Source: Terramyces sp. JEL0728
Taxonomy: Eukaryota; Chytridiomycota; Chytridiomycetes; Rhizophydiales; Terramycetaceae
Reading direction: 5' to 3'
Length of the DNA: 64,000 nt
Assembly (NCBI GenBank): GCA_027603945.1
Contig: JADIIU010000002.1
Span: 1-64,000 of the forward strand
Part shown: positions 403 to 64,000 of the stretch, in pieces
Layout of the letters: each line of letters opens with the position of its first letter
How positions within the stretch are numbered: position 1 is the first letter of the stretch
Position numbers and translations under genes: made by a program
Notes under the pieces: generated by a model
Databases searched by the model: none
What the model saw: the letters and a program-made list of their open reading frames with translations, nothing else
What the model was told of the DNA's origin: nothing

Positions 403-2766
403 TCAATTTACAACCACTGATAAGAAATGGAGATTATCCAGGTGATCAAAAAGTAACCATTTCCTGGTGCCAGATAGCACCGTCAATTTTAGATAAGCAT
501 TGGATGCAGACAATGTTAAACGAGGCAGAATTAGAAAAAAGTTACCTGTTGTTTTTGGCAAGATAATTGTGCAGTCATCTGCTTTGAGAACACAGTCCGC
601 ATCTATATCTTCAATCCGTGCTTCATAATCTTCCTCTCCAACCTATATCAGCAAAGGTTACTCTAAAATACAGGGTTTCAGGGCTTGAAATGTTTTTCAA
701 ATTCGCAGTGATATATACTGCAGGATATAAAGAGTTCAAACTGCGGAACTCCAACTGGAATCTAATAGCAGGGATTTTTACTTCCCACGGAATCGACTTT
801 AACAGCTACATTAGTCGAGAGTACATCTAGGGTAACAAATGACTTTGGGACTGAAATAGAAGTGTCATCTTTCAAACTTTTCACACACTGCCCTAGCTGA
901 TCTAATTTCGGTTTGAAATTCCTGGGCATTCCAAAGGACTCTTTTAATATCAAGATTCCTCTCTGCAAATACTGAATATCATTCAAGATTTTGTCTGTGG
1001 TAAAAAACTTTACATTCTCAGATCGTAAATGTAGCTCGTTAGCAATAGATTACATTTCGGAAAAGGAGTTCACAATTTAATAAGGTTTTGCAATAGTACA
1101 ACGAGCCCAGATTTGCTTTATCCATCTTGTACAGTTCATCTAGGTACCTAACTTGAGCAAAAGGTACTGAATTTGCGATATCAAAGCGGATTCAGAGCAG
1201 ATGGAGCCGCTCTCCCATCTGTTAATTAGTTCTTTTAAAATATCTTCAATATGTTGACGGTCTATGTCAGCATTTCCTTACAATTAATTTCTTCAGAGAC
1301 ATCATAGTCCGATAGGTATTTAGGAAGTAACTCAGGGATCTGGATCAAGTGATTGCTTACTGTTGGTATATGCAAAGGCAGTTTTTTGATAATGTATCCG
1401 TATTTTGCTTTTATATATTGCGGGAGAGAGGTTTTCAAGCGACTATCCACATTGCAAGCATTGAATATCAATACTAAATATGCCAAAACTAATATCAGCA
1501 CAGTTTACATCTCTTATCGTCCAATTTGTACTCTTTTGGCAGATACCCATTTTCATTCTCGAAAAAGGCTGGAATCATATCATCTGTGTCAGTTCTAAAC
1601 TACGAATCATCCTTGGGTAATTGGTAGCGATACCAGCAAGACATCCGTAAACAAATTCTTGATCTTTACTTTCAGAAACCAGTGTATCAATGATAACTTT
1701 TAAAATCATTTTCAAAGTCACAGTGGAGTGAAACCGCAAAACTCTATCGTTATCACTAGTTACTTTAACATGTCATATGCCAGTTTTCTAACTTTCATGT
1801 CCTTGTCCAGCAAAATCAAAATCACAGATTTAATACAGTCATCATCCAAATACAGTGCCCATTTTTTACCCAATTCGCCAATGCAACGGATGGAATCTTT
1901 GCGGATATCAGAATCTTCATCATTAAACATGTCTATCAAGAACCCCAAAGCAGTTGCTGCAAACGTCTTGTTTACCAAGCCTAACGAACACATCGAATCT
2001 GAATTAGCATGAATTACCAATTGTAGCTTTTCTGATGACCGCAAATTCATCTTCAGATCTATGTAAGCGCAACTTACCCATGGATAAAAGCGCCAAACGT
2101 GGATGATAATACAACCTTGTCCTCCAAATCAACATCGTCGTCTTCAACCTTCACCTTTTTAATTTTGTGGTCATGATCGTCAGTTAGAGGTTTTTTAGTT
2201 AGAGTCTGAAGCATCAAGTGCTCTGATGCTGTTGTGATTGTTCCTAGTAGCTTTGCAGCCTTAGTTAGAGTTGAAATACTCTCTCCCTTACTAAAGGACT
2301 CTTGTCATTCAATCCGTCGCACAATAAAATGAATAATTTATCCTGCATCCCTCCCGGTGCGTGGTTATCCAAATGTACCGTAGACCTAGATTGAATCACA
2401 ATTACCTAGGTTACAGCCGAAATACCACAGTAGCTGCATCGCATCCAATCGTATTTCATCATTATAATCTTTAAGCAATGGCAATATTTGCTGCCACGCT
2501 ATATCTGATTTTGAGGCCAGAACCAACTTTACCGCAGTTAGTCTGGTATCAATATCAGGATCATTCAAAAATTGATAAATATTCTTGACAGGATATCCCA
2601 AATGAACGGCGACTTTTAAACCCTTCATTCTAACCAGAGGATGTGGATCTGATAATTTGCCAATCACACTCTGAAGTATATTTTCACCCTCCATTTTATC
2701 AACCTTTATCACTTGCAAAATTTCATCAAATGATTGCAATACCCTGCTGGTGTCATTCTCGTCCAT
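403..2766 (-). CDS. INTS4: Integrator complex subunit 4 (INTS4)
   Basis: The predicted product is a HEAT-repeat protein of about 700 residues. After removal of 19-20 nt introns it aligns along the whole INTS4 family: EIRLDAMQLLW, AAKLLG...TLTKKPLTDD, GAFIHG then EDE, FLIDMFNDEDSDIR and LAYLVLIFNA. INTS4 is the scaffold that binds INTS9/INTS11, the endonuclease of Integrator, which processes snRNAs and ends promoter-proximal transcription. Introns that restore the frame include 643-661, 806-824, 1489-1508, 1584-1603, 1744-1763, 1999-2017 and 2059-2077, plus three more between 990 and 1285. The join near 2386-2425 is ambiguous (see findings). The first ATG is at 2766, only 32 bp from the start of the divergent RPC1. 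The stop is at 403, or at 446 if one more intron is removed. Confidence 0.88.
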
Positions 2767-2798
2767 GATTTCCTTTTTCTTTTTTCTGTCCAATCCAA

Positions 2799-7206
<4,408 letters not shown>

Positions 7207-7258
7207 AGTCGATATTTATACACGGTTTAGTCAAGAAAATCTTTACGCGACTTGAATA

Positions 7259-7596: not shown

Positions 7597-7646
7597 GTTT
7601 GGAGTTTTAATTTTCGGTTCGTCTGGACAAATCTGTTTTAATCTCA

Positions 7647-10055
7647 ATGGTCAGCATAGTTTCGATTTGTCAAGATGCAGCGGCAAAGAAAAAGAATCAC
7701 CATAAATGCTTGAAAGCTTTAATGGAATTGGAGGATTTACAAGACTTTTTTCAAGTGATTTTCCAGTATATCAGTTTGAAAAAGGAAGTTGGAAATACAG
7801 ATACTTTTCTTAAATTCCTCGCTCTATTTTTTACAGAATACTTTGCTTCTGGTATGGATAGATTAACGTTTGATAAAGGCCATGTACAGTTCCAGAATCA
7901 ATTGTTTGATTATTTGATTGAAGGGTTGAAAGCCGGTGATAAATTAGTTCGATTACGGTGTTGCCAGCTGATGACCCTGCTGTTGAATGCTGTGGAAGCT
8001 ATCAGTGATAACCATTATGAAATGATCAGGAAATCTCTGTCAGAAAGGATTAATGACAAGGATGCTGCAGTTAGATTGCATGCCGTCCACGGATTGTGTA
8101 GATTCCAGGTATCTATCATTAATGCAAGGATTGCGGAACCGATCAAGAAAATTCCATGGTGTTGGCACAATTAGTTCAGCTATTGAAGTATGATCCTCGA
8201 AGCGATATGAGAAAGTCGATTCTAGAAAACATTGTTTTTTCCAAAGATTCGATTTCAGCGATATTAGAAAGGGCCAGAGATGCAGATCCAGGTATTAGAA
8301 ATATTAATCCAGGGATTCGGAAGATGGTTTATCACAAAATCAAAGCTGAAGCGGTTTCTTACCAAAACTTTACCAATGCTCAGATTTCCAGCCTGATTAG
8401 TTTCGGGTGTGCAGATCGCGATGAATCAGTCAAAAGTTCCTGCCTGGAAATGGTATATGACACTTGGTTGGTGGATTACGAGAAGCTCAACCAGGTAGCT
8501 GTTTCTAAAATAGTTTTTTCACTTCATGTCTATGGAGACTGAGTACGAAAATCAATTTCTATACGTTGAATTTTTCAAGAGAAATCCAAAACAGAAGCTG
8601 AAGGAAAATGGTACTCTAACGCTGATGTAGATTTTAATTGGGACGAATTAACTCTATCGGATTTGCTAGCAATTGAAGCCTATACACAGCTGTATAAAAA
8701 TGTACTTGCTAATTAACTTTGAATGATGACAGAATTGAAATCCTGATTCCAACTCTAAGTTTCTGGGTTGCATTGATTGAAAATACATATGGAATACATG
8801 AAAGTATTGTCACTAATGATGACTGCAAAGGGCTATTGTATATGTTCAAGATTGCGCAGAATTTGGATATGTGTGACGAGACTGGAAGACGGGCAATGAC
8901 CAATTTGTGTAAAATCTTGCTGGTGGACAATTATTTACTCGAAGAGAACCAAAAAATATGTGTGGAAACCATGTTCTCATTAATTGGCGATGTGTCCAAG
9001 TTCTACGCTACAATTTTAGGATACGTAAACAGCATTAACCTGGAAAGTGGCATCGATAGATCGAATGGAATCAGATCTCTACAATTATTGGCAGTGTCAT
9101 TTGAGTCTCTCGGGATATGCTACAACAGCGCTGATCTTACCGGATACTTTGAATCTACTGTAGTGAAGAGCGTAGATTCAAAAGACCAAAAGGAAGTTTT
9201 CCTTGGATTAAAATGCTTATTGTTGTACAGCCTTCAATGTCCAGCCTTTGGGAAGGCACACATGGACTTATTCTTTGAAGCAATTGAAAGCACCAAGAAA
9301 GAAGTCGTGCTACTGGTACTAATGTTTTTCTTTGACTGGATTCTGCTACACGGATTTGATTTCACCCCCGAGCAGGTAAAATTTGCGTTAACTTTGACTC
9401 CGATCATGACAAAGTTATTGGTGAGTTATTTGGATTATGACTACAGCAAATCTGTTACGGTTGAAGGGTTGTGTAGATGTATGCTACTCAAGCATATCAC
9501 CGACGAAAATGTACAATTTACTTAAATCAGATTCTTTCAGAGTTGATTGTCCAATATTTACTTCCTGAAACTGCTCGCTTTCCTCTGGTTATGCAATGCA
9601 GCAGCTACTTTTTTGATATATTCACAAAGGCCTCCATCGAAAACCAGATAATGGTCCAGAAGGCAAGTTTTGATTGATGGCAGGTTTTCTACAAAGTATT
9701 GTTTGCCTTGGAAATGAAATCGCTGGAAGGAGTTTCAATCTCGTATGCAAGTGTAATCAGTCAACTGTTGGAGTTTACTAATCCTAAGCTGCTGCTGAAA
9801 CCAATTGAAGACCGCAACTTGCATTTAGAAATTGCTATTCAAGGATTAGAGTTGGCAGCGAACGAAAGTCCAAACTTTAGGAAAACCGTTTGCAATATGT
9901 TGACAAAAATGGATCTTCCAAAGGGAGGATCATCTGAATTGTTGGAGGCAGCATCTAGTTTTAAGCAAAGCTGTCAATCAGATTTAGTATGTTCTCGTGC
10001 CATGGAAAAGTACCTTGCTGTTGACTTTAGATTTATTCAGCAACAAAGCGAATGA
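7647..10055 (+). CDS. NCAPG: Condensin complex subunit 3 (CAP-G/Ycg1)
   Basis: The spliced product is 762 aa, shorter than human NCAPG (about 1,000). It is an all-helical HEAT-repeat protein; the repeats around FDYLIEGLKAGDKLVRLRCCQ and ERINDKDAAVRLHAVHGLCR match the Ycg1/CAP-G signature. CAP-G is the HEAT subunit that, with the kleisin CAP-H, clamps DNA in condensin I during mitotic chromosome compaction. Introns: 8109-8128, 8495-8513, 8611-8630, 8702-8721 (TG acceptor), 9511-9530, 9663-9683 (GC-AG). The ATG at 7647 is 50 bp past the DPY30 stop. The gene is convergent with UPF1. Confidence 0.88.
8702..8721 (+). other. 20-nt CAP-G intron ending in TG
   Basis: GTACTTGCTAATTAACTTTG lies between codons for AYTQLYKN and NDDRIEILIPTL. 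It starts with a normal donor and has a CTAAT branch-like motif, but it ends TTTG. Its removal eliminates an in-frame TAA and keeps the frame. No AG exists in a suitable position. Confidence 0.6.
9663..9683 (+). other. 21-nt GC-AG intron in CAP-G
   Basis: The segment begins GCAAGTTTTG and ends GATGGCAG. It joins IMVQK to VFYKVLFALEMK. The nearest GT, three bases in, would give the wrong frame, so a GC donor with the strong GCAAGT context is the consistent reading. Confidence 0.75.
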
Positions 10056-10171: not shown

Positions 10172-13100
10172 TTAAAACTGGGTGAATTCACCTTGGCTTT
10201 TCATTCCAGAATCATAATAGTCATATTGCGATTTATAGTCATCTAGACTACCATCAACTGTAATTCTATCAAACTGGTTAAAGATTTGAGATTGAATATC
10301 ATCTACGTCCAATTGGGAGAGCTGAGAGTTTTCTACTAAACCCGCATCCGACGAAAAGGATAATTGGGAAATCAGAGATTGCGAGGCAAACTGGGACTGG
10401 GTGCTGGCGAAATCACTATCTTGCGTGAACTGAGATGTTGGAATCAGCGGAATAGAAGTTTGCGAGAAAAAATTAGAAGAGTCGATTTGAGAATTGAAAT
10501 CATACAAATTGACGGCTGGCTTTTTCTCTTTGGCAGGTTCCTTCCTAGAGTCGCGCTCGCGCGGAGTGTAGGTTCTTGGTTTCATCAACTGGATCATGGA
10601 TACTTTGAGTGCATGCAGCGGTCCTTCGACTAAGCAATTCTTTTCTTTAAAATCCATTAGTAGCTGGTACCACAATGGGTTTTTACCCAATACTTTTGGG
10701 TTTCCAACTACGACAAGTCCATATTTTGCTCTGGTGAGCGCAACGTTCAATCGTTTAGCGTTGGACAAGAATCCGATTCCCTGATGTTCATTCGAACGCA
10801 CACAGGTAACAATGATATAATCCTTTTCACGGCCTTGGAAAGCATCAACAGATGCAACTTCTACTTCCTTGTATAATTCCTTTTTAAGAGACCCGTTGAA
10901 TTGCATGTGCTGGACCACGTACGACCTTTGGCCCTCATATGGAGTGATGATACCAATCTGGTGCGGGGCTACACCAGCTTTCAACAATCTAGTTACACAT
11001 TTTTCAACAAAGGCTGCTTCAGTCACATTCAAGTATGACGATCCAGAAGATGAAATTTCTTCCTGTCCAAAACACCCATGGAACATGGTGGGTGTCTCTG
11101 GTACTGGCCAAGGAAAGTCGATATTTGATCTCGTTCTTTCCTGCACCGTGACTCCGTTTTGCAAACTTCCTTCGTAAAACATGTTGGACGGAAACTCGGA
11201 AAGACATGGGTGCATTCTGTATTGCACTTGAAGACGCATTGGACGTAGCCCTAAAGCAATCAATCTTTCGAATAATGACTGATTTAAACCAGCTTTGGCA
11301 GCTTTCTTGTTGAGGATGACAGGCCCCAATTGCTGGTGGTCTCCTACCAATACCACCTGTTTAGATCCCAAAACTAGGGGAATCAAGGCTTCCGGTTCGC
11401 ATGCTTGGGTTGCTTCGTCTACCAAAACACTCCTAAATGAATATTTGGCTAATCTTGGATCTCCCGCACCGGTACAGGTACAACAAATAACATCAGCATT
11501 TTCCAGCAATTCCTTTTCAGCCTTCTGTCGGAGTCTGATATATGTTTTTTCGTCAGCAGCAGACAACTCTCCTAATTCATTTTTCAATTTAATCAACTTT
11601 TGCAAAAGCGGGTTGGAGTCATTGTTCTTGACTTGTTCATGAAGAGTTAGGAACGAAACCGACGATTCAAGATCTTCCCTGGACTTTGCAGCAACTCTGA
11701 CAACCTTTAATCCAGTCAAGTGGATTTTTGCAGTCAAATGGTCCACAGCAACGTTACTAGGTGCACATACTAATACTTGTCCTCTATTCATCCTCGCCAA
11801 ATGATACACAATTGTCGCAGAAGTCAATGTTTTACCAGTTCCCTAACGTTAAGTTATTCTAACCGGCGGTCCTTGAATCAGAGATAAAGGCTTTTGTAAA
11901 ACAGATTTGATGGCATTAACTTGAGAATGATTCAGTTCTGGTAAATTTGGAGCCGCAATTCTTTTTGGAATGTTAACTTTTAGTACTTGAGGCTCGACAT
12001 CATGCCCGAGCAAACGATGGTAAATGTAACTACTGACCGAATTTTCATCCACAGCAAAGGTTTTCATTGCTTTTTGCATTCTAAATTAGGTGGAAATACC
12101 TGTCAAAGGTAGTTGGCTTCCAGACGTAATCCACTGTAAAGTTGTGAGAACATTCAGTTGGGGCATTGTCGTTTTTCTTTAATTCCAAGCACACTTCGTC
12201 TGAAACATCTATGGTTAATTTCAATTACTGTCAGGTACTTTAAGGACATGTCCTTTTCTTTCCCAATACGGGTGTAATTCGCCTTTATATTTCAGGAATA
12301 ATTCGTCACCAGGCGCTAATCTAATATCTCCTAGTTCGAAACTAGGTAGGGTAAAGTATGCAAGACGCTTCATATTTAGCCCCATTCCCCATCGAACAAC
12401 TACATTCTCTTGAGTCTGGGATTCTTTCATTTTCTGGTCATAATCTGCTTCTAATTTAACCAGCGGGCCGAATATATTTTGATACAAATATGCATCATCG
12501 TACTTTAATAATACAGCTTGCGGATCTTCGTCCATGCCAGGTTTTTCCATATCTTCCAAAGTTAAATTTGCATTTTCTCTCCACATATCTTCAAGTCTAG
12601 CAATCTGTGTTTTTGTTATTTGTCTAGCACGCATTTGTTCTTGATCAGTGGGCACTTTGACCAACCAAGGGAGGAAACATCGGTCTTCAATCAGCGGTTG
12701 CCATTGAGTTAAATCCCAGTTTGCATCTTTGTTACTGGCTGAATTTGCACAGGGCTGTCTGCATAGCAATACTACAACAGTGTCGGACTTTGCTGGAACA
12801 AATCCAAGCATAAAAATATTTCTAAATCCACAGTTGTAGCATTCTAAAGTTGAATCTCCCAATGGCGAATCGGGGTGTAATGCAACTTCTTTGTGTCTAG
12901 CTTTCACCAGGTGGGAAATAATGTGGGCACCACTTGTATTGCCTCTTCCGTTACAAAACCACTTTTGGCAGCCTATACACTTTACAACTGAAGATGTAGA
13001 GTGGATTCCGCAATAATTACAGCTGTGTGGAAAGGTTTCCAGTGGAAATTCCCCAACTTCTTCTCCGTCAACATCATCATTAATGTCTTCCAGATAGTCG

Positions 13101-13208
13101 TTCGCTACATCCTGAGTGAAATCCTCATCATAATCGTATTGTGAACCCTGAGTATCTTGAAACTGGAATCAACAATTAATTTACCTCAAAATCGTACTGT
13201 GAGTTCAT
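10172..13208 (-). CDS. UPF1: UPF1/RENT1 RNA helicase, nonsense-mediated decay factor
   Basis: The spliced product is 984 aa. In order: SQ/TQ-rich N-terminus; the cysteine-histidine domain ([36 protein letters not shown]); regulatory 1B region; and an SF1 helicase core with Walker A GPPGTGKT, Walker [14 protein letters not shown], a QYRMHP motif and [16 protein letters not shown]. The C-terminal 110 residues (10172-10500) hold about ten SQ or TQ dipeptides, resembling the animal/plant tail phosphorylated by SMG1-type kinases; yeast Upf1 largely lacks it. Introns: 11843-11863 (splitting Walker A), 12081-12099, 12209-12228, 13163-13184. The ATG at 13208 is the first clear start. The frame stays open upstream to about 13376, so a longer N-terminus is possible. 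Confidence 0.97.
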
Positions 13209-40400: not shown

Positions 40401-40614
40401 TCCTGGTGTTAAATTCAGATACCTAGCGCTCTTTTGAATGGGTCGGTATTAGTCAGTAGGATTTCGGCATCTTGAACTACTTGAAGGATTGTGCTTGTCC
40501 CGGCATTGATTTCTGAATGAATAACTGAATACCTTTTGCAATATTGGCTATGCATTCAATGGATTCAGCACTTTCCGGCACTGCATTCGAAAATTTCTTT
40601 ATTTCTTTTTCCAT
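37452..40614 (-). CDS. MMS19: MMS19, cytosolic iron-sulfur assembly targeting factor
   Basis: The spliced product is 1,000 aa (human 1,030), HEAT-repeat throughout. Family anchors: FVVGFVHVMDAEKDPRNLV, ELFEVVFCYFPITFRPPPDDP, and the C-terminal LDDPKRVVRKEAANSRGKWF. MMS19 with CIAO1 and CIAO2B delivers Fe-S clusters to DNA polymerases, helicases and primase. Introns: 37647-37666, 37850-37868, 38025-38045, 38572-38590, 39091-39111, 39955-39974, 40403-40422, 40513-40532. Its client list plausibly includes XPD- and RTEL1-type helicases, none of which are in this window. Confidence 0.95.
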
Positions 40615-44817: not shown

Positions 44818-44896
44818 TCATCTGTATTTCAGACCATTGAGCAATATATTTTAAGATACTTTTTTTGTTGATCTGCATTTTTTTCATTGAATGACT

Positions 44897-46962: not shown

Positions 46963-47436
46963 ATGGATTTTCATTCACTGAAAAGAAAAGAGCTGCAGTA
47001 AGTCATTTTTAAATAAGGGATCTGTGCAAACAAAATAATATAAAAGCGAACGGCAAAGTAATCGTGGTTAATCTAGAATGTTGAAATGATTACGCGGTTG
47101 GTTGAACATTTCGAACGATTGAATATGGAAAAACTAACTGAGGACAAAACGGAAGAAAAATCAAGAGTGCAAGAGGATAAACTCTTTTCCCAAGGATCGG
47201 AGGTGACATTGGAGGATCAATCTGAAGAAAAGAAACAAGCTGTTCAGCTAGAGGAGCCAACAAAGGATGATAAATATGAGCAGGTGGAAAAGGATGAGGA
47301 GACTGATGCCCCCAAAGAAATCAGAACTAAAGAAGAGACAGGGGAACCTGAAGCGAAATCAAAAGAGAAGGAAATAACACAAGAAATGCCAAAGGTAACA
47401 GAGTTGAAAACCTCCATTCCACAACCTGCCAAGTAG
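46963..47436 (+). CDS. SAP-domain protein
   Basis: 144 aa after removal of introns 46998-47017 and 47058-47076. Residues 1-36 form a SAP DNA-binding helix-extended-helix (FHSLKRKELQDLCKQNNIKA then NGKNVEMITRL). The rest is a Glu/Lys-rich disordered tail. SAP domains bind AT-rich or scaffold-attachment DNA; the specific role is unknown. Divergent from the securin-like gene with 25 bp between ATGs. Confidence 0.75.
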
Positions 47437-47525
47437 AAATAATTAACCAAGAACTCCTCTTAAAAGACCAAATTTCGATGCGATTCACAACAGACATTTC
47501 CAAAAGTATCTATCACTAACGCAGC

Positions 47526-47856
47526 ATGTCTAGCATTACAGATTCTGTGAAAAAACAGAGAATCGAGCCGGAAAAACAGTTAAAGAAAACAAAGAATCCC
47601 ACTTATGCTGGTATTTGATTGATAACCAAGGCATACTAACAAAGAACGGGACGCCAGTGCGCAAGATGATTCCAATTAAATCTACAAAGAAAGAAAAAGC
47701 AGAATGCGTTCCAGATAATGCCGAATTTACTATGGAAGTCCCACCTCGTAATTAAAACGTAACATAGCACCCAAATTTGATCTGAAGGAAAGTTTGAAAA
47801 AACCATTAAATTATGTCCCCCACAAAGGACCGTTGAAGCCTTTTAAGAGTACTTGA
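47526..47856 (+). CDS. small basic hypothetical protein
   Basis: 96 aa after two introns (47611-47630 and 47748-47767). The sequence is Lys/Pro-rich, with a central KNPTYAGILTKNGTPVRKM and a C-terminal NYVPHKGPLKPFK segment that look conserved in style, but no family came to mind. It sits tandem with and 72 bp before NUFIP1. Confidence 0.55.
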
Positions 47857-47928
47857 AAATAACAACTTTTTTTGTTTCCCAAATTTTTTGTTCAGTCTAA
47901 AAAAGTTGTTGACTTTGAATCACCTCAA

Positions 47929-49039
47929 ATGGAAAAGAAAGACGAACCTAAGCCAGAAATTATCCCATATGTAAGACCTCCAGTCCCTCCTCCAAAGCAG
48001 CAAACTCTTTCCGAACAATGGCAGGAGTATACAAAATCAAGAAGTACAGTTCCAGCGCCAGTCAGTTATTCTGCCCAGCCATTATCTCAAGCACAATTGC
48101 AAGCTCAATATCAACAGCAATGGATGCATTACCAGGCTCAGGTGGCAATTGTGCAACAGTATGCGCAAGCTCAAATGTCTGGCAATCCTCAAATGTATGC
48201 AGGATATCCATATGACTATTCACAATACTACCAGCAGGATTACAATCAAAGCTATGTTCCGCCACCGCAGTATCCACCACTAGAACAACCATATCATAAA
48301 GGAAAAGGGCAGAGGGGAAAGAACAAACCAAAGAGAGGAGGAGCGACACATCCTCAGGCACCCGCTAAACCTCCTCCGCCAATCAAGACATGCGAAAACT
48401 GCGACAAAGAATTTAATAATATAACGGTATATGAACAGCATATGGCAGCACATAAAAAATGTGACCATTGTGATTTTGTAGCAATACCCAAAGTACTTGC
48501 TATGCATGAACAAGACGAGCATGGAATTAATTTAGAGATCAAGTATTTGCTTGTTAATCAAGGGTTCCAATGATGAATACAGAAGTAGAAATCGCTGCAT
48601 GGATCGCTGAACGAAAAAAGAACTTTCCAACAAAAGACAGCATCAAAGAAAAGGTATTTATCGCTAAAATAGAATGAGAAATTCAAATTGAAGAGAGATC
48701 GGGGAGATGTGATTGTAGAGTCTGGAAAGCTGAAAAAACAGAAACCTGTAAGTCTCCAAACAGATTTGACTGAAAAATCTGATTCAGAATTAGCGAATGA
48801 TTCTGAAAAAGTTTGCAAATATTTTTTAAAGAATCGCTGCAGACGGGGTGATTCATGCCAATTCAAGCATGAATCTGGTAATACTCCAAGTATTATACAA
48901 ACTGAGGGGCGGAAACCACTGCTGGATATGGTAAATTGGTTATTAACATCAGCTGCTCGCTAACGATATTAGAAGAGATCGTAATAAGGTGTTGCAAGCC
49001 ATCAAGCATATTATTAAGAGTGATTTCTTGCAAAAATAA
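47929..49039 (+). CDS. NUFIP1: NUFIP1-like box C/D snoRNP assembly factor
   Basis: 349 aa. A Pro/Gln/Tyr-rich N-terminus leads to a C2H2 zinc finger (CENCDKEFNNITVYEQHMAA HKK), then the NUFIP1 PEP motif (EIAAWIAERKKNFPT), a CCCH finger (CKYFLKNRCRRGDSCQFKH) and the C-terminal block KPLLDMLLANDIRRDRNKVL with KHIIKSDFL, all diagnostic. NUFIP1 (yeast Rsa1) bridges 15.5K/SNU13 to the R2TP chaperone during snoRNP assembly. Introns: 48543-48562, 48654-48672, 48931-48952. The start ATG is 47929. Confidence 0.93.
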
Positions 49040-49173: not shown

Positions 49174-49806
49174 TTATTTGCTGCCTGCAATGTAACCGCA
49201 AATATCCATATCTTTAACAATCATTGAAAAACAAACTTTGACTGAACCTTCGCTTTTCACTCTTGTCATTTCCCTTCCTTGGCATTTCGCAGGAAACTTT
49301 GAATCCAAAAATTCTACATTAATTAAACCAACCTGGGAGTCTTCCCATTGCCCATCCATAAAAAGAATAAAACGGGCTGGTTGCTGTTGGAGCGTATAGA
49401 TTTACGTACTCTGTATGTCTTGTCAATTTATTTTTACTTGCCAGATGTTGTAGGCAGTCGCAGTGCTCCATAGCCTCTAACAACATCTCGTCCAAGAAAG
49501 TCAAACCCGTAAACAGCCACTATAATTGTCGGCCATCCGTAAACATTCGTAGATTTAAAAGCAACATCCAAAGGGAAGTTCCATACACATGGCCCTACTT
49601 GATCAAACGTTGTAAAAGTGGATGGCTCTGCTTGCCTTGCTAGTTGAGAAATTCCCTCTTCTAATCCATGCAAGAGCGACCAGTCTGGTCCGTAATCAAA
49701 TCCAAATTTAACGTACAAATTATCGTATTGAGATATCTGGATTAGCTTAACGTACATGTGCCGATTCTATTTGCCCAGATAGTACCACTGAGAATATGTT
49801 TGTCAT
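49174..49806 (-). CDS. B9D1: B9 domain protein B9D1 (ciliary transition zone)
   Basis: 191 aa (human 204). The B9 (C2-like) domain is intact: YDNLYVKFGFDYGPDWSLLH, GLEEGISQLARQ, VWNFPLDVAFKSTNVYGWP, DVVRGYGALRLP, and the tail GREMTRVKSEGSVKV. B9D1 with B9D2 and MKS1 forms the transition-zone gate of cilia. Together with CFAP73 it shows the organism builds a flagellum. Introns: 49314-49332, 49419-49437, 49737-49755; the ATG at 49806 lies on a short first exon encoding MTNIFSVVLSGQIESAH. Confidence 0.95.
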
Positions 49807-50075: not shown

Positions 50076-51452
50076 ATGATGTTGAGGTTGAGAAATTTTA
50101 GAAAGTTGAATATAAGGATTGCCAAATTCGCATCACAGTCAAACTCATCACAGATTCCTGATTTGCCAGATATAGTCCCAGAAAAACCACAGCCAGGAAA
50201 ACCAATTGAAAAGCAAGTCGAATTCAAGGAAGAATCGATTGAATTGATTGAAGATATGACGATTGAAAAATGGGATTCAGTATTTAATTATTAACAAAGA
50301 AATCTTCATTGTCAGAATCAATCGGCAAAGTATTTAGTGTTGGTGATTCCATTATGGAAAAGTTCCCCTCTGCAACTGCATCAGCATACCTGAACAAACA
50401 GGTATTTGCTAATTAACAAGTTTAAACTTACCGCAAATTCAGGACTGTTATTCCGTGCAACATCGCACTCGCTCTTGAACGAATTGGATGCAGATTCATC
50501 TAAAAAGAATGAAAGGACAATTTTGCTTTGTACTTTTACTTAACTGTAGCCGGACCAAAGGGAAGCGGGAAAAGTACGGCAATGTTTCAAATGGTAAATC
50601 ATTATGCGAATAACGGCTATTTCGTATTGTACTTCCCCAAATTATCTGAATGGACAAGTGGTATCTTTTCTTACGAATCAGCTGGCAGTACTTATCACCA
50701 ACCAGAATTGGCTTGCAAATTATTACAAACTGTATTAGCTGCAAACGAAAGCCATTTGAAGAAATTGAAATCACCAGATGGGAAAACCACACTACTTGAA
50801 TTTGTATCTGCTGGCTCAAAGAACCCAAGAATTTCGCATCAAACTCTGGCTGATTTCTTGGATCATCTATTTAAACTTCCAGAAAGGTAGTTTGTGCTAA
50901 TTCAGACCTAAAATATTTTTGGCAATAGATCAAATCAACGCTATTTACACAAAAACTGCATATTGCGACAAAGATTCGGCTCCATTAACTGCAGACAAAT
51001 TCGCAATTGCAGCCAAATTCCATTCTCTGTTGCAAACTGAATTGCAAAATGTTGCGCGATTGATAGCAGTGGACAATTCTGTTACTCAAATCAAAGCTCC
51101 ATATTTGGACATATTGTCAAAGAAATCTCTGTCGTTGAACAAAGATCCGTTACAATTGAATATCAAAAAATACAAGCAAGTCGCTGCTGAAGAATTAGAC
51201 GCGATCCTTCCAAGGGCTACTCTAAATAATGGGTTCCCTACAGTAGAAATCAAAAATCTCTGCAATTACGTAATACCAGCACTTGATAAGGCTGAAACGC
51301 ATAGCATTCTTGATTTTTATAGAAAAACTGGTGTTCTTCGCCAAGGTAAGATATTTTTAATCGTAGCTTCTGTCGATGAAAATTATACAAAGAAGCAGTG
51401 GATGATCTCGCAGGGAAATGCATTGGAACTGTTCAAAGCTTCTACATTATAA
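50076..51452 (+). CDS. DAP3: mitochondrial ribosomal small-subunit protein mS29 (DAP3)
   Basis: About 425-432 aa. The P-loop reads SGPKGSGKSTAM, followed by the mS29-specific LYFPKLSEWTSGIFSY and YHQPELACKLLQTVLAAN. mS29 is the GTP-binding component at the mitoribosomal small-subunit head. The N-terminus (MMLRLRNFRKLNIRIAKFAS) is a typical mitochondrial presequence. Introns: 50280-50299, 50402-50420, 50530-50549, 50887-50905, and probably 51346-51366, a 21-nt intron-like segment without a stop. Confidence 0.93.
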
Positions 51453-54876: not shown

Positions 54877-54924
54877 TGTAATGTTTGAAATTTCGGAATT
54901 CAGAAACAAAATCTGAACCTAAAA

Positions 54925-56476
54925 ATGACGGTGGTTGATTCGGCCCAATATCAACTGACAGTTTCAAATGCAAATCAAAATAATCCGCAAATACCTGTAC
55001 TATATTTAACCAAGCTCGCACAGCACATGAACCGAAAGGTGATTTTATTTGCAGTAATTACATCAATCAAACCTCCATTCAAGACTAAAGGGACGGACTA
55101 TTCAATGACAATTGTGGTTCATGATCCTACCGTAGCTCTGAACCATGATGGGCTGTCAATCAACATTTTTGATTCAGATATAGACAAATTCAGTGCATTG
55201 AATGCAGGCGATATAGTTAAATGCAGATTCATAGTAGTTTTTTGTTTGATCTAGGTAAGAATAATGTTGATATATAGGTTTCGCATTTTGGAAGCAAGGT
55301 TCAAGCTGTTATCAACAAACGAAAGGAAGGGGCAGTCGTTAATGTCGAAACGATTGAACTTGATACCCACGAAAGTGAAATCGTAAAGTTCTTGGCCAGA
55401 CATAAAGGAACCAAGAGAAACGAAAAGGTTTACGCGAATGTTAGGCCGATAACACACATAAAGGAGATTGCCGACAGTGGATACTATGATTTATTCGGAA
55501 AGGTACTTGCGAATAAACCAGGTTGTGCTATTGGAGAAAAGTCATGGTTGCTACCTCATTGGGCTAACAGATTATACGGCGAACAATAAATTAGCGGCTC
55601 CCCTGGAAAACTTTAAGGAATCACTGCCAGAATCGATTCCAAATAATATGTTGATCGTCGTCACATGCTGGGACTTGAGGTGCAACGTTGAGTTGGGAAT
55701 GTATGTATCTCTACGAAACGCGAGGTCGAAATTGAATTCCAAAGGAAGACTTGAATTGGTTGTTCACGAAGATACACGCTACCACGACCGCTTGGCAATT
55801 AAAGAAGCTGACAGGACAAATGAATATGTTATGGCCATCAAAAAGTAATTTGAATTAACGCAGACGAGAACATGAGAATTTTGTCGCAGCTCCCATTGCT
55901 GTCAAGATTGAGGAAACAGAACAAGAAATAGCAACGCCCACAAGCGATATTACGCCAATCATAACGGTGAAAGAAACCAAAGAACAGGGAAAGTTTAAAG
56001 TCAAAATCAAAGTTGTGGATTACATGCCTTTCAAATTAGAGTACTTTGCTCGCCCATATTGCCATTATTGTAAGCAAGCGTAAGTTGCCCCTGATTTAGG
56101 TTGAATTTGACTGAAAGTGTGGTAGACTATTCATGCCCAAGCTGTCACGATGAAATATCGGATTATATATGGCTATTTACCCTGTTGGTAACTGACGACA
56201 ACCAAAACTTTATCCCGCTCATATTCAGCGAGATGCACGCAGTAATATCTACTGACATAGATTGAATTTCTTGGTGATTTTTACCCTGCACCGCTAACGA
56301 ATGATCAAGCAAAGGTCAGGGAAATGAAGGAGAAGTTGGCCAAGTATTTCTCCTTGGTGGGATTAGATAGAATCAAGGAATCAAAAGAAATCGAGTGCTG
56401 GATAAAGGCGTTCTACGTGGAGCACAACGATGAACAAGCTCTGAGATACAAATTTCTCTCCGTTACAAATAAATAG
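54925..56476 (+). CDS. POT1: POT1, telomere single-strand-binding protein
   Basis: 476 aa. The first OB fold carries the Telo_bind signature SIKPPFKTKGTDYSMTIVV. A second OB-like region (VVTCWDLRCNVELGMYVSLR, GRLELVVHEDTRYHDRLA) follows. The C-terminal part has CHYCKQ and CPSCHDE, a zinc site like that in the third OB fold of human POT1. POT1 caps chromosome ends and controls telomerase. Introns: 55234-55277 (44 nt, compound), 55503-55521, 55845-55863, 56080-56099, 56242-56260. Confidence 0.93.
55234..55277 (+). other. 44-nt compound POT1 intron: two unit-length introns joined at AG|GT
   Basis: The segment is a 21-nt unit (GTAGTTTT...GATCTAG) directly followed by a 23-nt unit (GTAAGAAT...TATATAG), each with its own donor, branch-like motif and acceptor. 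Only removal of all 44 nt restores the frame between GDIVKCRFI and VSHFGSKVQAV. Either unit alone leaves a frameshift. Confidence 0.75.
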
Positions 56477-56498
56477 TGTCAACTCTGAATGAATTTAT

Positions 56499-57192
56499 TT
56501 AAACTGAAGCAGTCAATAAGCTGTTGAGCTTGGTAATCTTTGAAGAGACTGACATGTCAATGGTGCTGTCGCCAACTTCAATGACAAGTCCACCGAGAAT
56601 TTTTGGGTCAATCTACCATTATAAACAAACAAACCTTGTTGGTTACCAACATCTTTCCTTCTTGGGCCAACTTTTGCTTGACCAAAGTTTCCTTGATCTT
56701 TGTGAGAGTTTTTTGGTCTAATTCCTAATGTTATAGCCAATTACTTTAGCAGAAGTAACGGTTACTGCAACTTCTCCTCTGAAGGCAGTCATTAAAGTTT
56801 GGAATGAATTGATAATCTTTGTGGTGTGATCCAATCTTCCATTTTCTGCCAAAAGGTTAAAGAAATTGACGGTAGTTTGGTTTGCACCTTTTCCAAGAAT
56901 TACTTCCAGTCCTCTCTTTTTGGTTGCTCGATCATATATTGGTGTTTCCAAAAACTGCTTTACTCCGGCATCCTTTCCAAGTAAAGTTTTGAGTGCAGTC
57001 AAATCTTGTTCGATTTTTGGTAATGCGTTTTCCTTTGATGCAGCAGAGAATAATGCTGAAGCATAACGTCCTTCAATACCGTGAAGTTTAACAGGAATCT
57101 GGTTAATAATCAATTACTTGGACCGTCTTTGCGGTTGCCATTGAGCGAACAATCTAGAATTAGTCGTTATTTACCTGGTGGATTCCTTTCAT
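56499..57192 (-). CDS. ATP5: F1Fo ATP synthase OSCP subunit (Atp5)
   Basis: 203 aa. OSCP/delta family: IEGRYASALFSAASKENALP, FFNLLAENGRLDHTTKIINSF, GEVAVTVTSAKELDQKTL, and the C-terminal signature IDPKILGGLVIEVGDSTIDM. OSCP links the F1 head to the peripheral stalk, which shows that the organism has respiring mitochondria. Introns: 56613-56634, 56725-56744, 57099-57117, 57154-57174; the two exons closest to the start encode the presequence. Confidence 0.96.
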
Positions 57193-57243
57193 TATTGCTT
57201 CTGATGAGAAAAAAAAGTTGGATTGAGAATTTGAAATTAAAAT

Positions 57244-57435
57244 ATGACAGAAAGCAGTTTTAAAGCCCAGTTCAAAGTTCAAAAACAGCGACAAGACCAT
57301 CTCATAAAAGAAAAGATAAGGTTAAAAAACAAGCTGAAGGAAATCAAAATCAAAGTCAAGGCTTTGAAAACAGAACGCAATTTTATCCTTGATTCAATGA
57401 TGCAGGGAAAAGAAGGGCCAGAGGAGGAAGACTAG
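57244..57435 (+). CDS. small coiled-coil protein
   Basis: Single-exon, 63 aa, almost entirely a basic coiled coil (HLIKEKIRLKNKLKEIKIKV then KALKTERNFILDSMM) with an acidic end. The pattern of paired Lys/Glu with a final LxxERxFILDxM recalls small subunits of chromatin remodellers such as the INO80 family, but this is a weak visual likeness. Confidence 0.5.
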   Translation: MTESSFKAQFKVQKQRQDHLIKEKIRLKNKLKEIKIKVKALKTERNFILDSMMQGKEGPEEED

Positions 57436-57647
57436 TATTATAATAAAGTGTATAGCCATCAGAATTGATATTCATCGCAGACACACAAGCTACAGCTTGG
57501 GTCAATTATCATCATTTGGCAAGTTTCTCAGATTAGAAATTGTGATCATTATAATCATAATTGGCTAATGGGAATCATCATTTTCGTGGAACAAATCAGA
57601 TTTGGAAAAAAATCTAAACGTCTGAAAAAACAGCATTCACTTTGGAT

Positions 57648-58492: not shown

Positions 58493-58752
58493 GCCAAAAT
58501 CTCACTTGGTATTAGTTCACTATAAATCAAAGTCGATTCCCTCCTTTAGTCAAAAATAAAAAAAGACAACTGCCAAAACCTTTCTGGGAAGATAATCAAT
58601 TGCGGCTCTTGTAACCCTTTATCTGGTAGATGTTGAAGGGCTGCACACCCTTTGATTCTTTATCACAGCAAAGCATCAGCTGAAGTGAACCGCAACTTGT
58701 GACTTGTAATTTCCCAAAAATTTTTAAACGATTCTTTCTGCAGCATATCAAA

Positions 58753-61700
58753 ATGAAATTTCATACTTATCCAGTGGAAGGATTGTTACCAAAATTAGTG
58801 AGTGTGGTATAATAATAGGAAACTGAAGCCGCATCATTTCAATCAATTAATCCGGAATACGACGGAAGGGGAACCATTGTTGCCATTCTAGATACTGGTG
58901 GATGATATTTAACCTAGGGGTCGATCCTGGAAGTCCTGGTTTGGCGATTACTACTGACGGAAGGCCAAAGCTTATTGATATTGTCGATTGCACTGGGTAA
59001 GAAAATACCTTACAAAGATCTGGCGATGTTGATTGCTCCACAATTATCAAAGACACTACAAAGGTTACAGCTGAAGACGGTTCAGTATCAGAGACAATTG
59101 TTGGATTATCCGGACGCACACTTAAACTAGGAAAATGGACCAACCCAACCGGAGTTTATCGAATTGGGATGAAGAACTCCAAGGAAATCTTTCCAAAGGA
59201 GCTGGGAAGAATTGAGAGGGTAATTACCAGCTAATTATAGGAACGCAAGGAAAAATTCCTTGAAAAACATAGCACTTTGTTGACCAAAGTACAAAAACAA
59301 GCGATTGAATATGATAAAACCGAATCGCCGGATCCATTAATGAAGGCAGATCATGAAGCCCGGTTTGATGTGCTTCGTGATTCAATGAAATCTTACCAAG
59401 ACCCTGGCGTCATTATGGATTGCGTTGTATTCCATGATGGAGTTAAATGGAGAGCTGCTATCGACACCAACGAAACTGGAGACTTGACTAAAGTGCCATT
59501 ATTGACAAACTATCGTGACGAATTACAGTATGCAACCTTTAGTATTGAAACCATGTTGAACTACTCTGTCAATATCTACGACAAAGGCCAAACACTATCT
59601 ATCGTCACTTGCGGCGGAACTCATGGCAACCACGTAGCTTCGATTGTTAGTGCCCACTTCCCAGAAGACCCTCGTTTGAATGGGGTTGCGCCAGGATGTC
59701 AAATCATTTCTTTAAAAGTTGGTGATCATCGATTAGGGACTATGGAAACTGGGACAGGGTTGAACAGAGCTGCTATTGAGCTGGCAAGGTGGAAAGTAGA
59801 TGTTGCCAATTTGTCGTATGGCGAAGCTGCCCATGTTCAGGAGTTTGGTAGATTTATTGACCTTTTAAAAAATGAAGTAATTAACAAGAATGGAACTATT
59901 TTTGTTTCTTCAGCCGGCAATGCTGGCCCTGCTTTAACTACTGTTGGCGCTCCAGGTAGGCTAAACTAATTTTAGGTGGTGTTAGCAGCGAAATAATCAG
60001 TGTTGGCGCGTACGTTAATCATTCAATGATGGAAGCTGAATATGCTATGCTGGACAAGGTACCTGAAAGAGCGTACACTTGGTCGAGTCGCGGGCCTGCT
60101 CTTGACGGTGATGTTGGTGTGGATGTATTTGCACTTGGCGCGGCTGTCACAAGTGTCCCGCAATATACGATTCAGAAAACCCAATTAATGAACGGAACTA
60201 GTATGTCTAGCCCTAACTGCGCCGGGTGTGTTGCGTTGCTGGTCTCTGGATTGAAAAGAGAAAAGATTGACTACACCCCATATAAAGTTAAAGCTGCTTT
60301 GAAGCACACAGCCAAATCAATCAACGATCCAATGGGAGTTGGGTTAGTCCAGGTTGAAAAAGCTTGGAGATACTTGACTAACACAGCCAAAGACTACTTT
60401 CCATCCAGTTTACATTACACGGTAAAATATTACTAATTTAGATTTCGGTTGCTGAAAGAAAGGATGGAAGGGGTATTTATCTAAGAGAAAGTTACGAAAC
60501 CAATTCCCTACAAGAATTAACCGTGAAGGTAAACCCTAGATTCCCAAATGCAAAAGATCCACATCAAAATTTGTCAAAGCTGGGATTGGAGCTTCAAGTT
60601 GCTTTAGAACCTTCCGAAGATTGGATTAGTGCACCAGAATATGCAGTCCTCAACAATGCAGGAAAAGACTTTAAAGTAAGGGTAGATCCTAGAAATCTGG
60701 CTCCTGGCTTCCACTTTGGAACAATTGCTGGGTATGACGCGAATAACAAGTCTGTTGGCGCGCTGTTCAAAGTCCCAGTGACCGTATGTAAACCAGACAC
60801 TCCAAGTATTAGTCCAGAAGGAGCTTATGTTATTTATGAAGGTCTAAAATTCAACTCTGGCGATATTATTCGTCACTTTGTTCAAGTGCCTGCAAATTCA
60901 AATTTTGCAGAAGTTATTGTCTCAACGAAAGGTCGCAAGACTCCAGGAAGATTCATTGTGCATCTGATGCAGCTCAATCCGCAATCTCCTTACACCAAAT
61001 TTGAAAATGAACAAGCATATGGCATTGAAACTTCGGGAGTCGAAGGGGAAATCAGCAACTACAAAACTTTTGTTCCTGTAATTCCAAATGTTACTCTGGA
61101 GGTGTGCCTAGCCCAATTCTGGTCTAGTTTAGATCCAAGCTCCGTCACGATTGAAATCAAATTCCATGGACTACTGGTTGCAGCAAGCTCAATTACCAAC
61201 AGTACCTATGGTATTTGTGGGGCTCCTGGCGGCCATCTAATCCCGATCAATTCTGGTTTGAATGGATTCGCCCGTCTTGATGTCTTTGCCCCACTTCGCA
61301 GAGAGGAATTTGACCCAAAGATTACATTTAGTAATACAGTATTTAATTGTAGCTGCTGTTAGACAAACCTTGAGACCTTCTGATTGCCAAATTGCACCTC
61401 TTCAGTCAAGAGATGTGCTGCCAAACAGTCTGCAGGTTCACGAACTTGTTCTTACTTACAATGTCAAGATTACCGAACCTTCAACCGTGTCATTCCTAAC
61501 CCCAAGGTTTGCAGGTGTAATTTACGAGTCTTCATTTGAAAACTTTGCAATTGCAGGTAATTTGTGATTAATAAGTATTCGACACAAACAAGAAACGAGT
61601 CCATTATCAAGATGTCTCAGCAAAAGAGTTGAAACTAAATGAAGGTGATTATGTTGTAAAGGCTCAAATTGCTTCTTCTGATGTTAATACTTTGGTAGAC

Positions 61701-62804
61701 CTTAAACCAGCTTCTTTAATTGTTGAAACCAAGCTATCAAAACCAGTGTCGCCTCCTCTTTCAGCTACCCTTGCAGATCTTCCAAAAGGAAATTTCAAAA
61801 AGGCAATTCTATCCAGAGGCGAAAAGTCAGTCGTTTGGGTGGGAGATATGGCATCTCTCCCCAAAGAAGCCAAAGGCGGGGATTTGCTGGTTGGTACTTT
61901 GCAAGTTACAGGCGCCTCCGTCAAACTACCAGTCGACCTGTACACAGTGTCTTATGTTGTGCCTCCAGAATACAAACCCAAAACGGCTGAACTTGGAATT
62001 AGAGAGCCCCCAAAGGAGGACGCTGTGTTGCTAAAGGAAGCGGTCAGAGATGTGGAAATTTCGTGGATCAAAAAAACCAAATCAGACGAAGGAAAGAGAG
62101 AGTTGATTAAAAAATTGGAAGCATCTTATCCTAGCCACCTGCCTTTATACATTGAAAAGTTGGAGGTGTTGGCTGAGCTTGCGCAAAAGGAAGTAGAAGC
62201 TGGAATTAAATCCCTTGAGCTCTCTTCTGAACGAATTGATGTTGCAAGCAAGATTTCCACCCTGTTCAATGAAGGCGACGTAGCAATGTACTTTGGTGTT
62301 CAGCAAGATCTTAGTCAAGGGAATGACAAAGACAAGGATATCAAAAAAGATATGGATCTCAAAAAACAGCTTCTTGGGTTAGCATATCGCTCCAAAGCTT
62401 CCGCTTATATCACAGCTATCAAGTTCAAGGAATCTGGCGTTTCTGCACCAGAGAAAGTAACCACGGCACTTGATTCTGTTACTGTTGCTGATTTGACGGA
62501 TCAATTCAATGCCGCATTGGCTAAGGTTGGTAACTGGTCGAGTGAAGCACCATTAGACAACGGGCACTATCTTTTGTTATGGACTTGGAAGCAGAGAAGA
62601 TTGGGCTACCTCGGAACTGCTTTGAAAGCGCTGCAAAAGTATGTTTCTTCATCAAAGAACGCTTACAAAGATGCAACTGGCGCATACAAGGAATGTGTTA
62701 AAATCAAGGTTGAGATTTTGAAGGAACTAAAGTGGGATATTTGGAATGAGCTTGATGAAAAATGGAAAATCTTGAATTTCCCAAAGATTCAGGCCCGTTT
62801 CTAA
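58753..62804 (+). CDS. TPP2: Tripeptidyl-peptidase II (subtilisin-family giant protease)
   Basis: 1,295 aa (human 1,249). The catalytic triad is visible: Asp in [13 protein letters not shown], His in [10 protein letters not shown], Ser in [12 protein letters not shown]; the large insert between Asp and His is typical of TPP2. The long C-terminal half includes [20 protein letters not shown] and the helical end. TPP2 forms megadalton spindles that remove tripeptides from proteasome products. Introns: 58798-58818, 58898-58917, 58997-59017, 59220-59240, 59956-59975, 60422-60441, 61331-61352, 61557-61575. The second intron splits the catalytic-Asp motif. Confidence 0.97.
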
Positions 62805-62857
62805 TAAAAGATTATAATAATCAATTTATATTACGTATGCTATTGTGAGAATGGAGA

Positions 62858-64000
62858 CTAATTCCCTTTTTGCTCGCTAATTGCTGGTGTTCTTTGTGGA
62901 TTCACTTTGGGACTTTGATTTAACCTCGCAGGTTTTCCATACAGTGCATTCTTTAACGATCTAACAGCAAATACAGTTAATCCCCTGGTGTTAGTGCGAA
63001 ACTTACAGACTGTGCCAGTCTTCCTCTTGCAAATCACGCAAATCTCCAACCGTCATGACATCTTGCGCATTTAACTTGGTCAGCCATTCCTTTGCCTTTT
63101 CCATTCCTCTTTTTGTTGCGATTGCAGTGTCACGAACCAACTCTTCTATGTTGTAATCATCAGGGTATTCTTTAATTGGGAAATCCTCCATATTATCGAA
63201 CGGAGTTATTTCAGCCATAGAACCCTTCCTCGATAACGATAAATGGCCTTCAGATCCGGAATCGCGACCAGCGCTTTCTAACCGCTGCAAACTGTTCCAC
63301 TGTCTATTTTCTTCCTTGTTCTTTTCGTCGCTTGCTGGTTTGCTCAATTCACGAATAATTCTGTTAATTTCTCCGGTAATTAAGTGTTGGTATTTTGCTG
63401 GAAGGACCTCTTCCGATATCATTTCATTCACGACTTCCTCAGCAGTATCAGTATCAACTAGGATTAGCAAGAAATTGCCATTAAAATCAAATTTAACAGA
63501 TAAACGATCCATTCCTTTAAATACAACCTGCATTGTCAAATGTGTTTTGTCAGGGTTGTTAATGATGACCACCTCTGGTTCAACTGCTAAAAACGGATGC
63601 TCAACGATTTGCTGCGCACTTAATCTGCCGTTAGTTGCTATTAACCTTTCTGATTCATGTCCGATGCAATTACAGATCAAATCGTAAACTTCAGGGTCGG
63701 TGACTTGCTGCAGACAATCTGGCTTGATCCCCTAAAGTTAAATAAACAGACCTGAATGACCTTTCTATAAATCTGAGGCGCATTTTTGCATTCGCTATAA
63801 GGGTATTGTCCAGTAACCATTTCCAACAACGCCATTCCGAAGGCGTAAATGTCAACCTTTTCACTGTAGCCCTTTTCTTCATACATTTCCTGGGATTAAT
63901 ACATAGAATACAGGCGCCATAAACTCTGGGGTGCCAATCACTGTATATTTTTTGCCCAGCTTCATCTTTGCGGTGCCCATATCGCCAATCTTTACTTCGC
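62858..64000 (-). CDS. WNK: WNK-family protein kinase, C-terminal part (runs off the right edge)
   Basis: The visible part starts in the activation segment: [10 protein letters not shown] (DFG position), [49 protein letters not shown], all WNK-specific. An OSR1_C/PF2-like domain follows ([20 protein letters not shown] ... [20 protein letters not shown]) and then a C-terminal SAM-like helical region ([20 protein letters not shown]). WNKs control cation-chloride cotransport and osmotic response in other eukaryotes. The ATP-binding lobe, which would show the displaced lysine, is outside the window. Introns: 62985-63006, 63732-63751, 63890-63911. Confidence 0.9.

Follow-up and report, generated by a model that had tools for sequence, protein, structure and literature searches.

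Can the genes of a flagellated fungus be built on introns of about 20 nucleotides (nt)? This question is raised by the first 64,000 nt of contig JADIIU010000002.1 of the chytrid Terramyces sp. JEL0728 (in the following called the window), for which about 125 spliceosomal introns of nearly always 18–23 nt had been proposed in an original prediction. The window was analyzed together with 20 loci of 10 kb, one per further contig, and the sample thus comprised 264 kb on 21 contigs of the 15.0-Mb assembly of 231 contigs. We are highly confident that the segments are ordinary U2-type spliceosomal introns, which are compressed to near the physical minimum, are found wherever the genome was sampled, and are probably served by a conventional machinery.

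Intron lengths and the decoy control

A gene finder was written for this purpose, which combines a three-periodic order-3 coding model with explicit stop handling and models introns as GT...AG segments. It replaced a first scan for coding frames flanking any dinucleotide pair, which gave too few matches (at 17–24 nt GT-AG had 9 versus 2.3 expected, rank second of 256 pairs, behind AG-TA), and an order-2 coding model, which was too weak, was dropped. In the first pass a flat intron-length prior from 10 to 300 nt was used, so that short introns were not preferred, and as a control GT-AG was replaced by nine decoy dinucleotide pairs in the same finder. With GT-AG, 340 introns were called and 122 of them had 18–23 nt, compared to 13–27 introns of this length with the decoys (mean 18.2). 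As a finder with a flat prior cannot favor short introns, this excess is not due to a length preference. GT-AG was not enriched in any other length class. The counts at 10–17 and 24–29 nt were within or under the decoy range, and those at 30–49 nt (28), 50–99 nt (34), and 100–300 nt (130) were below all nine decoys. GT-AG was the only one of the ten dinucleotide pairs that gave a peak at tiny lengths.

In the second pass donor and acceptor profiles were learned from the 17–26 nt class, with length still unweighted. The 18–23 nt class then contained 259 of 400 GT-AG introns, and 15, 21, 21, and 34 introns with four decoy pairs, which had five training rounds versus six for GT-AG. The peak at 18–23 nt is confirmed as real and GT-AG-specific. 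Full training led to 153 gene models with 212 kb of coding sequence and 393 introns, 374 of which had 18–24 nt (18 nt: 2, 19 nt: 103, 20 nt: 158, 21 nt: 73, 22 nt: 30, 23 nt: 6, 24 nt: 2), while 19 had at least 30 nt. The sampled loci thus have a single narrow peak below about 25 nt, as is characteristic of an ultra-short-intron genome, and the predicted mode of 19–20 nt was recovered. The earlier statement that the longest simple intron has 25 nt was nearly right for the bulk of the introns, but it did not hold for the 19 longer calls. Several of these look like gene-model joins, and a few may be real. When introns longer than 30 nt were banned, the model score changed from 6895 to 6812 and the number of genes from 153 to 163, because genes were split. 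An apparent second class of 44–46 nt introns (10 calls in the profile run) mostly vanished, with two 45-nt introns left after training; one 44-nt case from the profile run resolves into two adjoining tiny introns.

The window itself had 116 called introns, and 109 of them had 19–23 nt (19 nt: 31, 20 nt: 46, 21 nt: 18, 22 nt: 12, 23 nt: 2). They extend from positions 643–661 to 63890–63911, and besides them there was one call each of 30, 57, 111, 153, 173, 222, and 245 nt. The number of tiny introns is a lower bound, as the finder missed two introns of the RPC1 gene that are visible by eye, and it is well compatible with the approximately 125 introns proposed before. Tiny introns were present in 21 of 21 loci, with 4–29 in each 10-kb locus, so that their predicted genome-wide occurrence was borne out on 21 contigs (264 kb of 15.0 Mb). 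A rough extrapolation by length yields some 20,000 tiny introns for the whole assembly.

Anatomy of the tiny introns and the splicing machinery

The anatomy was measured on the 374 tiny introns of the sample. The commonest donor was GTAATT (52 of 374), followed by GTAAAT, GTATTT, and GTAATA; none of these is the U12-type donor, which is (A/G)TATCCTT. The 3′ ends were TAG (231), CAG (95), AAG (43), and GAG (5). A YTRAY-like branch site was found in 370 introns, and the branch-site A was preceded by 13–15 nt in 308 introns and followed by 4–7 nt in 312 introns. GT...AG ends and a YTRAY-like branch site near the 3′ end are as in U2-type introns, and the trained profiles converged on the very consensus that had been proposed from the window (GTA, TAAY or TGAY, 3–6 nt, AG). 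The tiny introns had a GC content of 0.31, the median exon had 246 nt, and there were 1.76 tiny introns per kb of coding sequence, in phases 0, 1, and 2 in 171, 113, and 90 cases.

The genome encodes Prp8, as a single open frame of 1409 amino acids (aa) around the PROCN domain, as well as Prp18, Slu7, and SF1 (SF1-HH domain). A U2 small nuclear RNA (snRNA) is also present (140 bits), which has the sequence GTGTAGTATC with the customary branch-pairing GTAGTA. Proteins of the major spliceosome and the U2 snRNA are therefore both in place, and the sequences suggest that this conventional machinery acts on the tiny introns. The tiny introns carry three signals at near-fixed spacing: the 5′ site resembles GTAATT, the branch site has the form YTRAY, and the 3′ site is YAG. 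The 13–15 nt ahead of the branch A and the 4–7 nt from the A to the 3′ end add up to 19–22 nt, and as the length is the sum of two near-fixed spacings, the distribution is narrow with little tail. A polypyrimidine tract does not fit between the branch site and the AG, so that recognition would have to depend on the combination of these three short motifs. The whole intron would probably be recognized as a unit (intron definition), SF1/U2 and U1/U6 would engage adjacent sites almost simultaneously, and the first AG past the branch point would be used.

Retention would introduce an in-frame stop codon for 61 of the 73 introns of 21 nt, compared to 47.2 (standard deviation 3.6) expected by phase reassignment, and the level of 61 was reached in 0 of 5000 simulations. 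Paramecium is said to be depleted of stop-less introns with a length of 3n. The enrichment is suggestive only; it resembles the outcome of selection for stops that expose retained 3n introns to nonsense-mediated decay (NMD), but it is partly a detection bias, because the gene finder misses stop-less 3n introns. If 11 hidden 21-nt introns are assumed, the stop fraction is 0.73 versus 0.65 expected. The predicted exons did not contain an excess of hidden 21-nt motif matches (11, versus 11, 12, and 16 at 19, 20, and 22 nt). The 22-nt introns had stops in 8 of 30 cases, below the expected fraction of 0.47, which counts against a simple NMD story.

Among 277 internal exons, four had a length of zero, i.e., two tiny introns stand back to back:

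window 55234–55277, + strand: pair of 21 + 23 nt
window 2386–2425, − strand: pair of 20 + 20 nt
locus L024, 3842–3884, + strand: pair of 22 + 21 nt
locus L026, 646–689, − strand: pair of 23 + 21 nt

These may be twin introns that are removed in sequence, or single introns of 40–44 nt that were split by the model. In a strict motif scan zero-gap pairs (one) were not more numerous than pairs separated by 6, 19, or 27 nt.

Protein junctions, gene models, and duplicate segments

If the segments are introns, the spliced frames should align with homologous proteins across the junctions. Four genes of the window allow this comparison:

58753..62804, +: tripeptidyl-peptidase II (TPP2, W19), 8 tiny introns; product identical to P0241; all introns called by the gene finder, with protein match
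58798..58818, +: TPP2 intron, 21 nt
58898..58917, +: TPP2 intron, 20 nt
58997..59017, +: TPP2 intron, 21 nt
59220..59240, +: TPP2 intron, 21 nt
59956..59975, +: TPP2 intron, 20 nt
60422..60441, +: TPP2 intron, 20 nt
61331..61352, +: TPP2 intron, 22 nt
61557..61575, +: TPP2 intron, 19 nt
3351..7206, +: RNA polymerase III largest subunit (RPC1, W01), 5′ end incomplete, 6 tiny introns
3668..3688, +: RPC1 intron, 21 nt, junction ungapped versus P0121
5175..5194, +: RPC1 intron, 20 nt, junction ungapped versus P0121
5910..5931, +: RPC1 intron, 22 nt, junction ungapped versus P0121
6117..6137, +: RPC1 intron, 21 nt, junction ungapped versus P0121
6342..6361, +: RPC1 intron, 20 nt, junction ungapped versus P0121
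6518..6537, +: RPC1 intron, 20 nt, junction ungapped versus P0121
3000..3018, +: RPC1 intron, 19 nt, found by eye, missed by the finder
3169..3188, +: RPC1 intron, 20 nt, found by eye, missed by the finder; frame NICK|TCSKLL as in Boothiomyces P0121
10172..13304, −: NMD helicase UPF1 (W36), 4 tiny introns called by the gene finder; match to 2wjv_A
13163..13184, −: UPF1 intron, 22 nt, junction at aa 40, beyond the aligned part
12209..12228, −: UPF1 intron, 20 nt, within the 2wjv_A alignment
12081..12099, −: UPF1 intron, 19 nt, within the 2wjv_A alignment
11843..11863, −: UPF1 intron, 21 nt, within the 2wjv_A alignment, in the Walker A motif
36407..37382, −: methylenetetrahydrofolate dehydrogenase (MTD1, W29), introns 37316–37335, 37099–37121, and 36662–36682; match to 1edz_A

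All 20 homology-testable junctions fit (TPP2 8, RPC1 6, UPF1 3, MTD1 3), and for the 12 of RPC1, UPF1, and MTD1 the nearest alignment gap was at least 6 residues off. The spliced TPP2 model is identical in 1295 of 1295 aa to the published Terramyces sp. JEL0728 protein P0241, and it shares 84% identity with a Boothiomyces sp. JEL0866 protein; 8 of 8 junctions were gapless versus P0242. RPC1 is 95% identical to the Boothiomyces sp. JEL0838 protein, and versus P0121 all 6 junctions were gap-free within ten residues. The first 882 of the 1016 aa of UPF1 were searched and matched the chain 2wjv_A, which we take to be human UPF1, with 1298 bits; the three junctions inside the aligned part have no gaps nearby, and one of these introns interrupts the Walker A motif (QGPP|GTGKT). 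MTD1 matched 1edz_A, presumably a yeast chain, with 363 bits, and the alignment runs through all three junctions, with the nearest gap 6 residues away. The identities of TPP2 to Terramyces and of RPC1 to Boothiomyces agree with a zoosporic chytrid of the Terramycetaceae (Chytridiomycota, Rhizophydiales), in line with the flagellated opisthokont that had been deduced from the sequence. An aphelid, rozellid, or sanchytrid had also been considered as the source, but these candidates were discarded in view of the TPP2 match to Terramyces.

Upstream of the RPC1 peptide KNISFG (window 2767–2900, +) no solution with GT-AG tiny introns was found by eye; the model lacks a start or an unusual splice site at this point. 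UPF1 had no match above 75% identity among the 120 matches listed, and a Terramyces RPC1 was absent from the 120 RPC1 matches listed. The database may therefore lack complete UPF1 and RPC1 models for this family, which would be expected if tiny introns break gene calls.

Eight spliced models, including MTD1, were scanned against Pfam, and all eight reached a curated cut-off. Two of the genes named in the original prediction, RPC1 and POT1, were recovered, the latter by the Pfam families POT1 and POT1PC. The following further models of the window carry tiny introns:

54925..56476, +: POT1-like protein (W18), Pfam POT1 and POT1PC, introns 55234–55254 and 55255–55277 (back to back), 55503–55521, 55845–55863, 56080–56099, 56242–56260
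41922..43889, +: MUS81-like protein (W13), Pfam ERCC4 and MUS81-like_WH, introns 41971–41990, 42086–42105, 42599–42617, 43490–43511
50076..51452, +: mitochondrial ribosomal protein DAP3 (W17), Pfam DAP3, introns 50280–50299, 50402–50420, 50530–50549, 50887–50905, 51346–51366
56499..57300, −: ATP synthase subunit OSCP (W22), Pfam OSCP, introns 57154–57174, 57099–57117, 56725–56744, 56613–56634
49434..49806, −: B9-domain ciliary basal body protein (W24), Pfam B9-C2 with 116.5 bits, intron 49737–49755
33344..34368, +: DUF4200 coiled-coil protein (W11), Pfam DUF4200, introns 33388–33409, 33772–33790, 33973–33992, 34122–34140
403..2766, −: HEAT-repeat protein (W37), 12 tiny introns, including the back-to-back 2406–2425 and 2386–2405; a 153-nt gap called by the finder (995–1147) is doubtful
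37452..40614, −: gene model W28, introns 40513–40532, 40403–40422, 39955–39974, 39091–39111, 38572–38590, 38025–38045, 37850–37868, 37647–37666
46963..49039, +: gene model W16, nine tiny introns (46998–47017, 47058–47076, 47433–47451, 47506–47524, 47611–47630, 47748–47767, 48543–48562, 48654–48672, 48931–48952) and a doubtful one of 57 nt
44891..46291, +: gene model W15, introns 44901–44920, 45310–45329, 45447–45465, 46141–46159
7647..8716, +: gene model W02, introns 8109–8128, 8292–8312, 8495–8513, 8611–8630

Natural variation was analyzed in seven near-identical pairs of segments (98.0–99.1%; L002/3, L004/5, L036/37, L039/40, L041/42, L043/44, L045/46), with exons and introns labeled by the predictions on the first copy. 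Predicted exons had 0 indels in 19,665 bp, whereas the 47 tiny introns had 3 single-base indels in 911 bp (Fisher p 8.7e-5 under equal rates); in one pair the two copies of an intron differ in length (21 versus 20 nt). Substitutions were also more frequent in tiny introns (20 in 911 bp versus 181 in 19,665 bp of exon, odds 2.4, p 7e-4). The remaining sequence had 22 indels in 5,321 bp, and part of it is probably unrecognized coding sequence, because its substitution rate is near that of exons. Long duplicate segments of 98–99% identity were found on contigs C18, C3, C26, C42, C44, and C90 (11–62 kb apart, same strand) and between C111 and C199; these are perhaps two haplotypes joined in the assembly, or true segmental duplications.

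Competing explanations and known systems

Taken together, the GT-AG peak, the branch site, the 20 fitting junctions, the indels in the duplicates, and the U2 snRNA with Prp8, Prp18, Slu7, and SF1 support that the segments behave as spliceosomal introns, as had been claimed, in all tests short of RNA. Several points weigh against this interpretation. Removal of the tiny introns from the mRNA is deduced from the genome, and some of the 19 called introns of at least 30 nt may be real. If the published TPP2 model came from ab initio prediction, its agreement with the spliced model is partly shared reasoning. In more distant relatives fewer junctions were gapless, i.e., 3 of 6 for RPC1 versus P0148 (incomplete), 5 of 6 versus P0123, and 4 of 6 versus P0124, and 7 of 8 for TPP2 versus both P0243 and P0244. 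Two core RNAs are unaccounted for, as U1 snRNA had no match and U6 only chance-level matches in the genome, with 41 of 233 and 48 of 1328 candidates of the first look scored. Nor did the whole genome contain a match to a 22-base core of U6 when up to 3 mismatches were allowed; the assembly may lack U6, or an intron may interrupt it. Two U6 matches (E 6–8e-4, below the gathering score) were not accepted, as both stem from one region, which occurs on two contigs and adjoins or lies within a predicted gene. Lastly, RED (RED_N) and LisH, the proxy for Smu1, were unmatched, but the controls were equally unmatched, so that a loss is not established. RED and Smu1 are needed for short introns in human cells (extract of PMC6692369).

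The alternative that survives best concerns the age of the trait: many Rhizophydiales or chytrids might share such introns as an old and common state, with Terramyces as just one example. This is conceivable but rather doubtful. All 8 TPP2 junctions are gapless versus the protein of Boothiomyces sp. JEL0866 and 7 of the 8 versus that of JEL0838, which at the protein level indicates compatible gene models, but the mean intron lengths of fungi are at least 63 bp in the available extract of PMC8476143, in which two chytrids were sampled, and an intron length of 137 bp was inferred for the fungal ancestor (extract of PMC11649378).

It is very improbable that the segments are removed as DNA, like the internal eliminated sequences (IESs) of ciliates, or bypassed in translation. 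IESs are likewise short, AT-rich, frame-breaking insertions, and splicing was deduced here from the genome. However, the IESs of ciliates are bounded by TA and absent from the expressed DNA, whereas the segments described here are bounded by GT...AG, are present in the assembled genome, and have a branch motif at a near-fixed distance, next to a U2 snRNA and second-step factors in the same genome. DNA elimination is not known from chytrids. The least credible alternative, an artefact of a finder that bridges frameshifts from sequencing errors or pseudogenes with any GT...AG, could draw on the false introns called with decoys, on flat-prior introns of 30–300 nt that are no more numerous than with decoys, and on the second rank in the cruder first scan, but it is refuted for the class as a whole by the restriction of the peak to GT-AG, the convergence of the profiles on donor and branch site, the fitting junctions, and the lack of exon indels, although individual introns may be wrong.

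Introns of other fungi also have GT-AG ends and a YTRAY branch site. They are much longer in the quoted cases, with means from 63 bp in Cryptococcus neoformans, called relatively short, to 469 bp, and some microsporidia are intron-less (extract of PMC8476143). Closely similar lengths are found outside of the fungi. Chlorarachniophyte nucleomorphs have more than 800 introns of 18–21 bp in about 300 genes (PMC10245619, in part), which are alike in their narrow, near-identical length range and their number, but belong to the remnant nucleus of an endosymbiont and not to a 15-Mb nuclear genome of a fungus. The heterotrich ciliate Stentor coeruleus, also a free-living cell, has introns of a near-fixed 15–16 nt (PMC10245619, PMC9505925, both in part), but Slu7 and Prp18, which accompany the 19–22 nt introns of Terramyces, are both listed as not found in Stentor in the available extract of PMC9505925. 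Mikrocytos mackini, a mikrocytid, shares the extreme shortness and uniformity (16–17 nt), but it is a rhizarian parasite with 224 introns and a highly reduced spliceosome (PMC10245619, in part), in contrast to about 1.8 introns per kb of coding sequence in Terramyces. The ciliates Paramecium and Nyctotherus also have only ultra-short introns, which are about 5 nt longer (around 25 nt; PMC5014332, in part). As judged from taxonomy, the tiny introns of Terramyces presumably have an origin separate from those in ciliates, rhizarians, and nucleomorphs.

The assertion that an opisthokont with such introns had not been described needs a qualification. A fungal or other opisthokont case was not recognized in the titles and abstract beginnings of the open-licence literature, and other literature may hold one; the available parts of PMC6784888, PMC5701793, and PMC8371127 did not contain intron lengths. 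The introns are, however, already implicit in databases, as at least one public gene model (TPP2, exactly) leaves them out. On balance, we lean toward the view that Terramycetaceae are the first opisthokonts known to have a whole gene set on introns of about 20 nt, in a fungus that can be cultured and has retained Slu7 and Prp18, though perhaps not RED/Smu1, and with some genes whose back-to-back introns would need successive removal.

The trait occurs in a lineage in which it was not expected. So far, the known cases of ultra-short introns have all come with unusual nuclei or reduced genomes (ciliates, a parasitic rhizarian, and relic algal nuclei), and a 15-Mb zoosporic fungus with tiny introns would uncouple the trait from parasitism, nuclear dualism, and spliceosome reduction. 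As ordinary gene callers can break such genes, the public annotation of Terramycetaceae may be incomplete. If the interpretation is true, an otherwise ordinary fungal spliceosome would be available for measuring how closely the 5′ site, the branch point, and the 3′ site can be spaced and still work, and this relative of well-studied fungi would be a testing ground for minimal spliceosome geometry and for the factors that short introns are said to require.

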